Assembly: GCA_040882465.1 (NCBI GenBank)
Contig: JBBEBG010000022.1
Location: forward strand, 3,027-67,026
Length of the DNA stretch: 64,000 bases
Direction of reading: 5' to 3'
Source of the DNA: Gemmatimonadota bacterium
GTDB lineage: Bacteria; Gemmatimonadota; Gemmatimonadetes; Longimicrobiales; Gaopeijiaceae
Shown one piece after another: positions 49,938 to 56,024 of the stretch (position 1 is the first letter of the stretch; each line of letters starts with the position of its first letter). Position numbers and translations under genes: made by a program. The notes beneath the pieces were generated by a model. That model ran no database searches and was not told the origin of the DNA. It worked only from the letters and a program-made list of their open reading frames with translations.

Positions 49938-52076
49938 TCAGCCTCGGGAAGAAGCCGCCTCGACCTCTTCGACCTTGGAGCCTTCTTCCTCGATCGCGGC
50001 CTTCCGAGAGAGGCGGAGGCGCCCCTTCTCGTCGACAGAGAGAAGCTTGACCCGCGTGACCATCCCGCGCCTCAAAACCTCCTCCGTATTCTCCGTGCGC
50101 CCCTGGCGAAGCTCCGAGATATGACACAGCCCCTCGACGCCGGGGAGGATCTCGATGAAGGCGCCGAAGGTCGTGACGTTCTTCACCGGTCCCTGATAGA
50201 CGCGCCCGACCTCGGGCTCCTGCACGATCGCCTCGATCATCTCGCGCGCCCGGGCCGCCGCCTCACCGGAAACCGCCGCGATCTTCACGATCCCCGAGTC
50301 CTCGATTTCGATCTTCGCGCCGGTCTCGTCCTGGATCGCGCGAATCGTCTTCCCCTTGGGCCCGATGATCTCGCCGAGCTTCTCCGGATTCACCTGGATG
50401 GAGGTGATGCGCGGAGCGTGAGGCGAAAGCTCCTCTCTCGGCTCCGCGATCGTCTGGTCCATGATGTCGAGGATGTGCATCCGCGCCGTATTCGCGCGTT
50501 CCAGGGCCTCCTGGAGGATCTCGCGAGTGAGGCCGTCCACCTTGATGTCCATCTGAATGGAGGTGACTCCCTTCCGGGTCCCCGCGATCTTGAAGTCCAT
50601 GTCTCCGAGGGCGTCTTCGAGTCCGAGAATGTCGGTCAGGACAGCGACGCGGTCTCCCTCTTTGATAAGCCCCATCGCGACCCCGGCGCAGGCGGCCCTC
50701 ACCGGCACCCCCGCCCCCATGAGGGCGAGAGACGAGCCGCAGACCGTGGCCATCGAGGAAGAGCCGTTCGACTCGAGGACATCCGAGACTATCCGAATCG
50801 TATAGGGGAAGTCGTCGTACGACGGGAGGAGGGGCTGGATCGCCCGCTCGGCGAGCGCCCCGTGCCCGATCTCACGACGCGATGTGCCGCGCATCGGCTT
50901 CGCTTCCCCCGTGCTGAAGGGGGGAAAGTTGTAGTGGAGCATGAAGGACTTCGTGATCTCTTGGGCCTGGTCGATGGACTCGATCCGCTGCTCGTCGCGC
51001 GACGTCCCCAGGGTCGCAACACAAAGGGCTTGCGTCTGCCCGCGGGTGAAGAGTGCGGAGCCGTGCGTGCGCGGGAGGAGGCCGATCTCACAGGAAATGT
51101 CGCGGACCGTGCTCAGCTCGCGCCCGTCCGCACGGATTCCTTCGTCGAGGATGCGGTTTCGCATGCTCGACTTCTCGATCCCTCGGAGAATCTCGCCGAC
51201 CTGGTCGCGCGAGCTTTCCATCTCATCGTCGGAGAGCTCGTCCTGGAGGCGCTCCTCGACATCTTCCTTCACCGACGCGAGCGCCTGACTGCGCTCCTGC
51301 TTTTCGCGGAGCGCCATTGCAGCCGCCACCCTCGACCGGGCCAGGTCCTCGACGCGCGCCGCCAGGCTCGCGTCCGGGAGGCGAGGAGTCCAAGCCATAT
51401 CGGGCTGGCGGCGCTCTGCGATCAACTCCTCCTGGATCTTCACGAGCTGGCGAATCCCCTCGTGCGCGACCTCGAGCCCCTCGAGCACTTCGGCTTCGGG
51501 AACTTCGACGGCGCCTCCTTCGACCATGAGCAGGGCGTCCGCCGAGCCGGCCACGACGATGTCCACGTCGGAATAGGCGAGCTGCTGGAAGGTCGGATTG
51601 AGGATCCAGTTTCCGCGAACCCTCCCGACCCGGACGGCGGCGATGGGAACCTGGAAGGGGATCTTGGACATGTTCAGAGCCGCCGACGCACCGAAGAGCG
51701 CCAGGACATCCGCATCGTTTTCCTGGTCGGCCGAAAGCACCGTGCAAACGACCTGTGTTTCGTAGAGGAAGCCGTCGGGAAAGAGCGGTCGCAGGGAGCG
51801 ATCGATCAGGCGGCAGGTGAGAGTCTCCTTCTCGCCCAGGCGCCCCTCCCGCTTGAAGAACCCTCCGGGGATCTTCCCCGCGGCGTAACTCTTCTCCCGG
51901 TATTCCACCGTCATGGGGAAAAAGGGGAGGTGGGTCGGCCGGTCCTGCACGGTCACCGCGCAGAGCACCACCGTCTCACCGAACTGTACCAGGCATGATC
52001 CGTGGGCCAACTTGGCGAGGCGCCCTGTCTCGAGCGTCAGCGTGCGCCCCGCGAACTCGCGTTCAATTCTTTGCAT
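49938..52076 (-). CDS. pnp: Polyribonucleotide nucleotidyltransferase (PNPase)
   Basis: The 712-residue 3'-5' phosphorolytic exonuclease has two RNase PH domains: first GETVVLCAVTVQDRP; second RTHGSALFTRGQTQALCVATLG and the catalytic DMDFKIAGTRKGVTSIQMDIK. An alpha-helical linker lies between. The KH domain (KLGEIIGPKGKTIRAI) and S1 domain (GRVYQGPVKNVTTFGAFIEILPG) follow. The ATG has a GGAG site 5 bases upstream. It lies 270 bases after rpsO, with a hairpin in between that could allow post-transcriptional autoregulation as in other bacteria. Confidence 0.97.
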   Translation of the reverse strand: MQRIEREFAGRTLTLETGRLAKLAHGSCLVQFGETVVLCAVTVQDRPTHLPFFPMTVEYREKSYAAGKIPGGFFKREGRLGEKETLTCRLIDRSLRPLFPDGFLYETQVVCTVLSADQENDADVLALFGASAALNMSKIPFQVPIAAVRVGRVRGNWILNPTFQQLAYSDVDIVVAGSADALLMVEGGAVEVPEAEVLEGLEVAHEGIRQLVKIQEELIAERRQPDMAWTPRLPDASLAARVEDLARSRVAAAMALREKQERSQALASVKEDVEERLQDELSDDEMESSRDQVGEILRGIEKSSMRNRILDEGIRADGRELSTVRDISCEIGLLPRTHGSALFTRGQTQALCVATLGTSRDEQRIESIDQAQEITKSFMLHYNFPPFSTGEAKPMRGTSRREIGHGALAERAIQPLLPSYDDFPYTIRIVSDVLESNGSSSMATVCGSSLALMGAGVPVRAACAGVAMGLIKEGDRVAVLTDILGLEDALGDMDFKIAGTRKGVTSIQMDIKVDGLTREILQEALERANTARMHILDIMDQTIAEPREELSPHAPRITSIQVNPEKLGEIIGPKGKTIRAIQDETGAKIEIEDSGIVKIAAVSGEAAARAREMIEAIVQEPEVGRVYQGPVKNVTTFGAFIEILPGVEGLCHISELRQGRTENTEEVLRRGMVTRVKLLSVDEKGRLRLSRKAAIEEEGSKVEEVEAASSRG

Positions 52077-52346: not shown

Positions 52347-52619
52347 CTATTTCCGGAGCCCCAACTCGTCAATGAGGCGCCGGTAATGGTCGAGGTCCGT
52401 TCGCTTCAGATACTCCAGTAGGCGCCGCCTGCGCCCCACCATCTTGAGGAGGCCCTGCCGGGAGTGGTGATCGGCCTTGTGTTTCTCGAAGTGGTCCCGC
52501 AGATGATCGATCCGCTGGGTGAGAAGCGCGATCTGAACCGCCGTGCTGCCGCGGTCGTTCTCGTGCGATTGATGCTTCTGGACCACCTTCTGCCGTGCTT
52601 CGGCGCTCACACTGGACAT
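52347..52619 (-). CDS. rpsO: 30S ribosomal protein S15
   Basis: The 90-residue protein binds 16S rRNA early in 30S assembly. The sequence is typical throughout: KHQSHENDRGSTAVQIALLTQRI, HLRDHFEKHKADHHSRQGLL, MVGRRRRLLEYLKRTD and YRRLIDELGLRK. The ATG at 52619 gives the usual family length. It precedes pnp as in most bacteria, but here it is separated from ribF by the lipoprotein-transporter pair. Confidence 0.97.
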   Translation of the reverse strand: MSSVSAEARQKVVQKHQSHENDRGSTAVQIALLTQRIDHLRDHFEKHKADHHSRQGLLKMVGRRRRLLEYLKRTDLDHYRRLIDELGLRK

Positions 52620-52713: not shown

Positions 52714-54288
52714 CTATCTCGATCCCTCATCGGCAACAACCCCGGACCCTCCCCTCCTGGCAGGCATTCCCCAGAGCTCCGCGGGTCTCTCGAGCCGTCC
52801 CCCGCCGATTCCGATGGCGATGAGCGCGGCCATGCCCATGACGATCCCCGCCGTGATGAACACTTCCCGGAAAGTCGCAACCTGCGCCTCGGAAACGAGA
52901 TCCAGGAATTCTGGTGAACCAAAATCGAGGGCGCCGGCGCGCGCGTAGAAGCGCCCCAGCCCGTGGGAGGTCAGGAGGGCCGCCCCCACCAGCATTCCCG
53001 CCATCCGGGCCAGGGTGAGCCAGGCGGCGGCGGTCGCTCTCTCCTCCTCCGCGACCCGCTGCAGGACCGCCGCGCCCAAAGGCGCCAACACCAATCCGAA
53101 GCCGAGCCCGCCGACGAGTTGGGGGACGGATCGCATGAGCTGGGTGAGCTCCGCATCCCATCCCTGAAGCCCCGCGAACCCCGCAGCGATGAGGACACAC
53201 CCGGCGACGGCGGTCGGGCGAAGGCCCATGCGGCCGCCGAGCCATCCTCCCAGGAGAGCGCCCAGCGGCACCGCAATCGTCAGCCGCATGAGGGTGAGGC
53301 CGCCCTCGAGCGCGCCTTCGACGAGGACGAGGTTCACGAAAAGGGGAACGCCCATGAGCGCGGTGATGAGCCCCGCCCCAACCAGAAACATCGTCAGGTT
53401 CGCGCAGGCGGTGCGCGGCTCGCTGAGGGCGCCGAGCCGCACCATGGGGTACCCGCCTCGTGCCTCCAGGCGGAGCTCGTGGAGGACGAACCCCATTGCG
53501 AGGGCGGCAGCGACCGCAAGGATCGCGAGCGTCCAAGAAAGGGGCCTGGGAAAGATCGGGTCGTTCACGAGCCCGTACGTCAGGACCGCGAGGGCGAGTC
53601 CCAGGAGGGCCGCGCCCGCCCAATCAATGCGCCCCTCGCGTCGCGTTCCGGTCGCGAGCCACCAGGCGCCAATGAGCGTCGGGAGGACGAGGGGGAGGTT
53701 CACCCAGAAGACGGCCCTCCACCCCCACCACTCGGTGATCACCCCCCCCCACGCCGGACCGATGAGCGCCCCGGCCTCGGTGGCGGCTGCGATCGCGCCG
53801 AGCCCCATGAGGCGGCGCTCCGGTGGGAGTTGATCTACGACGATCGCCATCGCGACCGGGACGACCCCTCCCCCGCCAACCGCCTGGAGCGCCCGGGCGG
53901 TCACGATCCAAGGGAAGGAGGGCGCCAACGCGACCAGCGTGCTCCCGATCATGAAAACCAAGAGGGTCACGGCAAAGATCCGCGCGAGTCCGTAGACGTC
54001 CGCGATCCTCCCTACGATCGGAAGGGCGACGAGGTATCCGAGGAGGTAGCCGTTCACGACCCAGGACGACTGGTAGAACTGGTCCACCGTGAGCCCCACG
54101 TCAGTGATCAGGGCAGGGAGGACGACGACGATGGAGGTCTGGTCGTTCGCGCTGTGGAAGACGCCCCAGGCGACCAGGAGGAGGAGAAGATTTCCTCGCG
54201 ACGGATCAACGCCGCGCCGCAGGAGCCACCCGGACTGGAGCCAGTCGGGGACGCGCCTGATCCGTGCGGCGGCGAAGCCGTCGGTCAC
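52714..54288 (-). CDS. MFS transporter, 14-helix DHA2-like (P55/EmrB type)
   Basis: The 524-residue protein has about 14 membrane helices. DHA2-family motifs are visible: motif A-like GRIADVYGLARIFA after helix 2, the antiporter-type segment RALQAVGGGGVVPVAMAIV, and GPAWGGVITEWWGWRAVFWVNLP (motif C region). The gene lies 25 bases downstream of a LppX/LprG-type lipoprotein gene, as P55 does in mycobacteria. That suggests export of a lipid or amphiphile rather than simple drug efflux. This is inference from order and family. The GTG start at 54288 follows a purine-rich site. Confidence 0.88.
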   Translation of the reverse strand: MTDGFAAARIRRVPDWLQSGWLLRRGVDPSRGNLLLLLVAWGVFHSANDQTSIVVVLPALITDVGLTVDQFYQSSWVVNGYLLGYLVALPIVGRIADVYGLARIFAVTLLVFMIGSTLVALAPSFPWIVTARALQAVGGGGVVPVAMAIVVDQLPPERRLMGLGAIAAATEAGALIGPAWGGVITEWWGWRAVFWVNLPLVLPTLIGAWWLATGTRREGRIDWAGAALLGLALAVLTYGLVNDPIFPRPLSWTLAILAVAAALAMGFVLHELRLEARGGYPMVRLGALSEPRTACANLTMFLVGAGLITALMGVPLFVNLVLVEGALEGGLTLMRLTIAVPLGALLGGWLGGRMGLRPTAVAGCVLIAAGFAGLQGWDAELTQLMRSVPQLVGGLGFGLVLAPLGAAVLQRVAEEERATAAAWLTLARMAGMLVGAALLTSHGLGRFYARAGALDFGSPEFLDLVSEAQVATFREVFITAGIVMGMAALIAIGIGGGRLERPAELWGMPARRGGSGVVADEGSR

Positions 54289-54313
54289 GCTCCCCTACCC
54301 GCGACAGGTCGCC

Positions 54314-55003
54314 TCAAAGGGGCGCGGTGATCTCGAAGGTGGCGCCGAACTGGGAGAGCGTGAGGCGGCGAACGACCGTCGAATCGTCGCCGTCGGCAAG
54401 CGTGCCGCGGATCTCGATCCGGTGCACGACAGGGTCCTCGCTTCCGATCCAGGTTCGCGCGGTCAAGGGGCGGCCGGCAGGGACGCCGGGGATGAGCAGG
54501 GCGAGCGCCCCAGAGTCCAGACTACCGTCGACGATATGGGTCTCGACACCCCCCACGACCTCGGTCCCGGTCAGAGTCGGCGTGCCGATCCCGCGAATGA
54601 CCGCGGTCACTCCCGTCGCTGGATCGAAGAACTCAGAGATGCTGAGCGCCTGGGGAGTCCACGCGCCAGTGAGCGGGTTCGTCATCCATGCGCCCTCCGG
54701 CACGATAATCAGCTGCAAATTGACGGCGAGAGGGCCGGTTCTTCCCATCACGTCGGCGCGGAGGCGCTCGCCGTTTGCGATCTCCCCCTCAGCGCGCTCC
54801 ATGGCGAGCCCTCCAACGATCATCGTGGTTCCGTTTTCGTGCTCGAGAAGAAAGGCGAAGGAATTGACCTCGCTCATTCGGTCCGCGGATGACGCAACGA
54901 GCTCAGCCGGATCCGGCGCTCCTCCGTCCCCGTCCCCACCGCAAGAGGCCAGGAGGGCGAAAGCGAGAAGAGAGGTGGCCCGCATCTTGGTCCGCATGAA
55001 CAT
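54314..55003 (-). CDS. LppX/LprG-family lipoprotein
   Basis: The product of about 229 residues has a lipoprotein signal ending in the lipobox LLASC, followed by a Gly/Asp linker. The mature domain reads like LppX_LprAFG: ADRMSEVNSFAFLLEHENGT, a central ERLRADVMGRTGPLAVNLQLIIV, WMTNPLTGAWTPQALSISEFFDPATGV, and a C-terminal half ending SQFGATFEITAPL. In mycobacteria this fold carries acylated lipids in a hydrophobic pocket. ATG at 55003 has a GGAG site; an upstream ATG at 55045 in the same frame is possible. It pairs with the MFS gene. Confidence 0.8.
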   Translation of the reverse strand: MFMRTKMRATSLLAFALLASCGGDGDGGAPDPAELVASSADRMSEVNSFAFLLEHENGTTMIVGGLAMERAEGEIANGERLRADVMGRTGPLAVNLQLIIVPEGAWMTNPLTGAWTPQALSISEFFDPATGVTAVIRGIGTPTLTGTEVVGGVETHIVDGSLDSGALALLIPGVPAGRPLTARTWIGSEDPVVHRIEIRGTLADGDDSTVVRRLTLSQFGATFEITAPL

Positions 55004-55052
55004 GGAGGTTGTCTCCAACGGAAGGGTCTTTTTCATCGAGGGCATCGGTCTC

Positions 55053-56024
55053 TTATCGCTCCGGACCTTCCACCGTTCCGCGGTCCGCAGCGAGAACCTC
55101 CCGGGCGGCGGCCACGTCGGCCTCCATCTGGCGCACGAGCGCCTGCGCCGACTCGAAGGCGCCCACGGGACGCAAGTACCGGATCAGGTCCACCCGCACT
55201 TCCTCTCCGTACACGTCTCGGTCGAAGTCCAGGACATGGAGCTCGATCGTGGGCGGCGATCCCCGGAAGGTCGGCCGCGGGCCCAGATGAAGTGCCCCGC
55301 AGAATACGCCATCCCGGAAAGCGGCGCGAACCGCATAGATCCCGGCCGGGGGAAGCGCCTTCTCCTGGCTCCCGATCTCGAGGTTCGCGGTCGGAAAACC
55401 GAGCGTCCGTCCGCGCCTGTCTCCATGCACCACGAAGCCGCGCATCGAATAGGGACGGCCGAGCCCTTCTCGAGCGGCATCCATGTCTCCCGCCGAGACC
55501 GCGTCCCGGATCCGACTGGACGAGATGGGTCCGCCCCCCATCTCCACCGGTCCCACCACAGCGACCTCGAAGCCCAGCTCATCCCCGATTTCCCGGAGCG
55601 TGTCCACGTCGCCGGACCGACCGCGCCCAAACCCATGATCGTACCCGATCACGAGTTCTTCAACTCCCAGGCGGCCCACCAGGATTTCTTCGACGAAGCG
55701 CCGGGGGGAGTAACGCGAAAGCGCCTGCGTGAAGCTCAGGAAAACCGCGTAGTCGAGGCCGCTTTCGGCGAGGATTTCCTTCTTCTCGACCGGGGTCGTC
55801 AGGAGGCGCGGCGCCGCCTCCGGCCGGACGATGCGGAGCGGATGGGGATGAAAGGTGAGGAGGACCGCGCGCCGTCCCGTGACGCGTGCGCGTTCCTGGA
55901 TCTCCAGGAGAACGGCCCAGTGACCCCGATGCACGCCGTCGAAGGTGCCGACCGTCGCCACAGTGCCCCGGCCATCAGCCGGAAGCCCAGGAGGAAGGGT
56001 CAGGTCGATCGCGGATTCGCTCAA
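55053..56024 (-). CDS. ribF: Bifunctional riboflavin kinase / FAD synthetase
   Basis: The 323-residue enzyme makes FMN and FAD. The N-terminal nucleotidyltransferase domain has TVGTFDGVHRGHWAVL, LTFHPHPLRIV and GYDHGFGRGRSGD with ISSSRIRDAV. The C-terminal kinase domain has GDRRGRTLGFPTANLEI and GVFCGALHLGPRPTF, with the Glu in TIELHVLDFDRDVYGEEV. The TTG start overlaps the truB stop as TTGA. Its place after truB is conserved in bacteria. Confidence 0.96.
   Translation of the reverse strand: MSESAIDLTLPPGLPADGRGTVATVGTFDGVHRGHWAVLLEIQERARVTGRRAVLLTFHPHPLRIVRPEAAPRLLTTPVEKKEILAESGLDYAVFLSFTQALSRYSPRRFVEEILVGRLGVEELVIGYDHGFGRGRSGDVDTLREIGDELGFEVAVVGPVEMGGGPISSSRIRDAVSAGDMDAAREGLGRPYSMRGFVVHGDRRGRTLGFPTANLEIGSQEKALPPAGIYAVRAAFRDGVFCGALHLGPRPTFRGSPPTIELHVLDFDRDVYGEEVRVDLIRYLRPVGAFESAQALVRQMEADVAAAREVLAADRGTVEGPER

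Follow-up and report, generated by a model that had tools for sequence, protein, structure and literature searches.

In the literature that we examined, the pair formed by the lipoprotein LprG and the MFS transporter Rv1410 is treated as belonging to mycobacteria, where it seals the mycomembrane. LprG binds and moves triacylglyceride (TAG), and it also binds triacylated PIM and LAM (PMC4709180). Four M. tuberculosis members of its family, PF07161, are listed in the literature. The transporter was originally described as a drug pump (PMC10576003). In its homologue MHAS2168, Remm et al. 2023 (PMC10576003) drew attention to D35, R118, Q121 and N184, to an ion lock formed by E157 and R426, and to D83 of motif A; the ion-lock glutamate was reported to be absent from 46 characterised MFS transporters. 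Here we describe a pair of this kind in a Gemmatimonadota bacterium, within a stretch of 64,000 nucleotides (the window, by which we mean the whole stretch analysed). Its family, fold, functional residues, gene linkage, insertion site, rarity in the host phylum and closest relatives lead us to read it as a bona fide LprG/Rv1410-type lipid-handover pair, acquired laterally from a Chloroflexota lineage and sitting at the ribF–rpsO junction. We give this reading a probability of about 0.72.

The two genes occupy positions 52714–55003 on the minus strand, placed between ribF and rpsO; re-calling the open reading frames returned the bounds given in a first-pass annotation. Along that strand the gene order is nusA, infB, DUF503, rbfA, truB, ribF, lipoprotein, MFS transporter, rpsO, pnp, M16 peptidase and dut, where the housekeeping genes were named by eye and the same genes were re-found in relatives by tblastn. 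The intergenic gaps are short, with ~49 bases between ribF and the lipoprotein ATG at 55003, 25 bases between the lipoprotein and the MFS gene downstream of it, and 94 bases from there to rpsO. An alternative in-frame start for the lipoprotein is the ATG at 55045. Co-transcription of the pair with the ribF–rpsO operon is likely. Scans of the locus showed no promoter-like sites and one terminator-like site that was not above chance. The RNA-family search returned tRNA only, distant from the pair, and models of anti-phage defence gave no match. The features are collected in Table 1.

Table 1. Positions of the gene pair, its key codons and the flanking genes in the window.
Feature	Coordinates	Strand	Remarks
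Lipoprotein gene (LprG-like, PF07161 LppX_LprAFG)	54314..55003	-	229 aa from ATG 55003; PF07161, AF2, LprG 3mh9, lipobox
MFS transporter gene (Rv1410/P55-like, 14-helix DHA2-type)	52714..54288	-	524 aa; GTG start; 8PNL match, AF2
Glu171 codon	53776..53778	-	E157 of MHAS2168, E147 of Rv1410; ion lock; alignment to 8PNL
Arg428 codon	53005..53007	-	R426 of MHAS2168, R417 of Rv1410; ion lock; alignment to 8PNL
Asp49 codon	54142..54144	-	D35 of MHAS2168, D22 of Rv1410; proton site in TM1; alignment to 8PNL
ribF	55053..56024	-	upstream flank of insertion; tblastn matches 51-78% in 58 family genomes
rpsO	52347..52619	-	downstream flank of insertion; tblastn in relatives
pnp	49938..52076	-	next conserved-operon gene; re-found in relatives

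The lipoprotein matches PF07161 (LppX_LprAFG) at 54.6 bits (E 1.6e-14) over profile positions 1–188 of 192, the curated cut-off being 24 bits. Its lipobox is LLASC. To judge from the sequence only, the cysteine (codon 54943–54941) would begin the mature part, and it is invariant in 19 relatives. Among solved structures the best relatives by phmmer are LppX, LprG and LprF, and a 19-sequence profile places LprG first (E 2e-14). The AF2 model of the mature protein has a pLDDT of 90.8 and a pTM of 0.86. Foldseek and VIA-align 2 both rank M. tuberculosis LprG top; the 3mh9 structure superimposes with Z 23.8 and 2.6 Å over 193 residues, TAG-bound LprG (4zra) gives Z 22.7, and PIM-bound LprG (3mha) is also among the nearest solved structures (LprG range Z 22.7–23.8). 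LprF follows at Z 22.0 and LppX at Z 16.7, and there is a clear drop to LolA- and RseB-like folds, at Z 11 or below. On the predicted structure, the protein is a member of the LppX_LprAFG family with the LprG/LppX half-barrel fold, as the first-pass annotation had proposed; a model lacking the half-barrel, set beforehand as the outcome that would speak against the proposal, did not occur.

General libraries identify the downstream protein by general MFS models only, with drug-pump models falling below threshold. Its best NCBIfam models are drug pumps (EmrB-type TIGR00711, 166 bits), all under their cut-offs. Against solved structures the first match is 8PNL (MHAS2168) at 171.8 bits, with EfpA next at 71.5, and a profile-based search gives 333 bits for 8PNL against 176 for the next structure. 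The AF2 model (pLDDT 86.8) has 14 long helices, in agreement with the earlier description, and helices 223–240 and 250–276, lying between TM6 and TM7, correspond in the model to the TMA/TMB linker helices. By fold 8PNL again ranks first at a TM score of 0.80, with EfpA (0.77) and QacA (0.76) so close behind that fold by itself does not pick out Rv1410. Helices 414–451 and 459–494 (TM11 and TM12) are long in the model and may extend into the periplasm. The spacing from TM11 to TM12 was tried as a marker of Rv1410-type transporters and rejected, since it did not separate paired from unpaired transporters (medians 57 and 54.5, p 0.82; several loci end early).

Following Remm et al. 2023 (PMC10576003) we checked seven positions that are proton sites, their contacts, part of the ion lock or part of motif A. 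In the alignment to 8PNL all seven are kept, as D49 (D35 in MHAS2168), D97 (D83), R132 (R118), Q135 (Q121), N197 (N184) and the lock pair E171–R428 (E157–R426). As a control, a P55 from Mycobacterium was handled in the same way and has identical letters at all seven. The evidence from sequence, residues and fold rank supports an Rv1410-like transporter rather than a DHA2 pump of unspecified kind.

Is the ion-lock glutamate linked to the lipoprotein partner? We surveyed the column across all the related transporters available to us and weeded out duplicate loci manually. Glutamate stands at position 171 in 22 distinct lipoprotein-paired transporters and threonine in 15 other paired ones. None of 61 transporters without an adjacent LprG-like gene has glutamate there, in a set that was collected by shared peptide motifs and is no random sample. 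Four rows that appeared to be unpaired with glutamate were explained on inspection; two (L024 and L129) represent a single locus, where the lipoprotein and the stop-to-stop frame overlap, and the other two contigs (L029 and L041) start within the transporter, so that the upstream gene lies off the contig. The link offers a testable marker for Rv1410-type transporters. Paired Chloroflexota transporters with Thr171 form a subfamily (L132–L147) whose lipoproteins match PF07161 at up to 184 bits, and which may have a different coupling mechanism.

How general is the pair outside mycobacteria? The nearest relatives of the transporter are Chloroflexota records, at 59–67% identity, and their lipoproteins (e.g. 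L018–L031) are 40–51% identical to that of the window, in the same gene order. Among L018–L033, every Chloroflexota locus that extends far enough has the lipoprotein immediately before the transporter. PF07161 is present in 115 of 301 Chloroflexota genomes surveyed, and in 27 of the best 30 loci a related MFS gene directly follows the lipoprotein. In Dehalococcoidia-type genomes (L018–L031) the pair sits between selD-like and groEL-like genes, as judged by eye, across many loci. As clues to cargo the recurrent Chloroflexota neighbours were uninformative: by eye they resemble groEL, argJ, an acetyltransferase and selD, with no lipid genes among them. The order of lipoprotein followed by transporter is shared by the window, two further genomes of the host phylum (below), Chloroflexota and a Mycobacterium genome, which bears out the earlier comparison with lprG–Rv1410c; the pair stays together in related and distant genomes alike, so that a separation of the two genes in related genomes, the second outcome set beforehand as speaking against the proposal, did not occur either. 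An LprG–Rv1410-type pair is widespread in Chloroflexota, apparently unremarked. Our search of open-access journal papers found nothing linking LprG with Chloroflexi or Gemmatimonadota, and an earlier description may exist elsewhere.

The host phylum presents a different picture, with PF07161 found in 3 of 395 Gemmatimonadota genomes and 392 lacking it. In the survey of that phylum the pair occurs at the ribF–rpsO junction in the window and in one other genome, Baikal-deep-G154 (filed as Gemmatimonadetes; hereafter G154). Both copies are intact with their functional residues kept, and the transporters are 71–73% identical across two genera. The lipoprotein diverges much faster, at 45% identity between the window and G154 (L005 7922–8623). 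A third genome (Ast373_bin6, G364), from another family of the order, carries a divergent pair at a different site (L007 8998–11279, G364:C11); its transporter is of the Thr171 type, lacks the ion-lock glutamate, and the pair adjoins an M3-type peptidase-like gene. The first-pass annotation had taken ribF and rpsO to be normally adjacent, and so they are. There are 30 family-level ribF loci, with rpsO readable after ribF in 26 others, and the two genes are 93–366 bases apart in 25 of these 26 and 1063 in one. That one (L102 921–1981, G031) has a 1063-base gap after ribF, without such a pair. Elsewhere (L117 2439–3921, G021) the junction is broken, with ribF followed by an ORF that by eye resembles a transposase, and again no pair.

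In transporter trees the window and G154 are grouped with support of 100/100, within a clade of the same support whose other 14 members are Chloroflexota; further Chloroflexota lie outside it. The lipoprotein tree agrees. The two hosts are mutually nearest rows in a tree of ribF, with the fork drawn open. A single insertion in the common ancestor of the window genome and G154 is the simplest account. Under an AU test the Gemmatimonadota pair may still be sister to the 14-row Chloroflexota clade rather than nested in it (p 0.55), so the transporter tree alone does not fix the donor or the direction of transfer, and these rest mainly on the distribution and on the undisturbed ribF–rpsO junction in relatives. 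Lateral acquisition from the Chloroflexota side is the best reading; we infer its direction.

The mechanism that we envisage begins with that transfer. The ancestor of the window genome and G154 would have acquired the pair from Chloroflexota, in particular from a lineage close to the Dehalococcoidia-type clade, and the insertion between ribF and rpsO probably placed it under transcription with that operon. The MFS protein would take a strongly hydrophobic multi-acyl lipid from the inner membrane into its own cavity, transport that is presumably coupled to protons. The LprG-like lipoprotein, anchored in the inner or the outer membrane, would receive the lipid at the periplasmic side in its pocket, and then carry or release it towards the outer envelope. 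By analogy with LprG, a multi-acyl lipid is a plausible class of cargo. The host has LpxC and LolA and is an LPS-type diderm, and both genes are absent from the Chloroflexota tested; the pair, if it works, thus works in quite different envelopes. The earlier description of the host as a Gemmatimonadota-type diderm therefore stands, being borne out by LpxC, LolA and its relationships, but the pair is not a trait of Gemmatimonadota; it is a rare arrival in that phylum, with its nearest relatives and its wide distribution in Chloroflexota.

Could the pair instead be ancestral to Gemmatimonadota, and lost nearly everywhere with no lateral transfer? The second, divergent pair, that of Ast373_bin6, would fit such a history. 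Yet its transporter has Thr171, its site is a different one, and the present tree puts it a long way from the window's pair; the two are not sisters there, and the window's pair lies among sequences from Chloroflexota. With 392 of 395 genomes lacking PF07161 as well, we consider an ancestral pair very improbable. We give slightly less credence still to a passenger cassette that landed in the operon by chance and serves no selected role. Occupation of the site in two genomes only is what such an event might leave, but in both the copies are intact, with every functional residue kept, at 71–73% identity across two genera.

The remaining alternatives concern function. One is the version suggested by the first-pass annotation, in which the pair exports triacylglyceride and its place in the translation operon couples that export to growth. 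TAG binding and transfer by LprG (PMC4709180), the presence of TAG-bound LprG among the best fold matches, and the short gaps that separate the pair from ribF and rpsO on the same strand all speak for it. Against this, WS/DGAT synthase was not found in the window's genome, in G154 or in the Chloroflexota tested, while seven were found in the Mycobacterium control; this counts against WS/DGAT-made TAG as the main cargo, in a search limited to the WS/DGAT route. Moreover the LprG pocket also takes triacylated PIM and LAM (PMC4709180) and so does not fix the cargo, making another multi-acyl lipid plausible. The tie to growth was drawn from gene position alone and is unproved, and the pair has other gene settings in Chloroflexota and in Ast373_bin6. 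TAG as a cargo is possible, and gained no support in this analysis; the growth-tied export route as a whole is unlikely. Slightly less likely is that we are dealing with an ordinary DHA2 pump for the efflux of drugs or toxins, to which the lipoprotein is loosely attached as an accessory. That would agree with the drug pumps at the head of the NCBIfam models, below cut-off as they are, and with the original description of Rv1410 (PMC10576003). It fits poorly with the wide sequence margin by which an Rv1410 homologue is the best solved relative, with the linkage to a lipid-pocket lipoprotein kept across phyla, and with an ion-lock glutamate confined to the lipoprotein-paired transporters surveyed and absent from the 46 characterised MFS transporters (PMC10576003).

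If the lipid-handover reading is right, the Chloroflexota spread and the LPS-diderm host imply a core job that is independent of the mycomembrane and of WS/DGAT triacylglyceride. We would go further only tentatively: it is possible, but rather doubtful, that in an LPS diderm the acquired pair is an inner-to-outer-membrane route carrying a multi-acyl lipid distinct from WS/DGAT-made TAG, and that the same pair, common in Chloroflexota without LpxC, plays an unrecognised general part in lipid export far beyond mycobacteria. Homologues of the LprG–Rv1410 pair in harmless bacteria are natural material for working out the cargo.

Comparison with known systems places the pair closest to those of Chloroflexota (e.g. 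L018–L031), which are its nearest relatives and have the same gene order, but whose neighbourhood lacks ribF and rpsO and whose hosts lack LpxC. The DHA2 transporters EfpA, QacA and EmrB share the overall fold and motif A, but score lower (71 bits or less), and the unpaired transporters surveyed lack the ion-lock glutamate. The mycobacterial LppX–MmpL7 system has a lipoprotein of the same fold family; however, its transporter is of the RND/MmpL type and not MFS, and LppX scores lower (Z 16.7). In a Mycobacterium genome (L166 4266–11257) the lprG–P55 pair lies between ribE-like and ribD-like genes, as judged by eye. Since the Chloroflexota pairs lack rib genes, the proximity to such genes both there and in the window (ribF) is probably a coincidence. 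The transporter is only ~29–32% identical to Rv1410c/P55 and MHAS2168 (8PNL), and its TM11–TM12 region is ~16 residues shorter than in 8PNL as counted on the printed alignment; it nevertheless shares with them 14 helices, the seven functional residues including the Glu–Arg lock, and, in the model, the long TM11 and TM12. Identity of the lipoprotein to M. tuberculosis LprG (Rv1411c) is similarly low, at ~18%, and the hosts differ, one a mycomembrane organism and the other an LPS-type diderm. Yet the two proteins have in common their family, their fold (Z 23.8 over 193 residues, from the model), a lipobox, and a transporter gene directly downstream.
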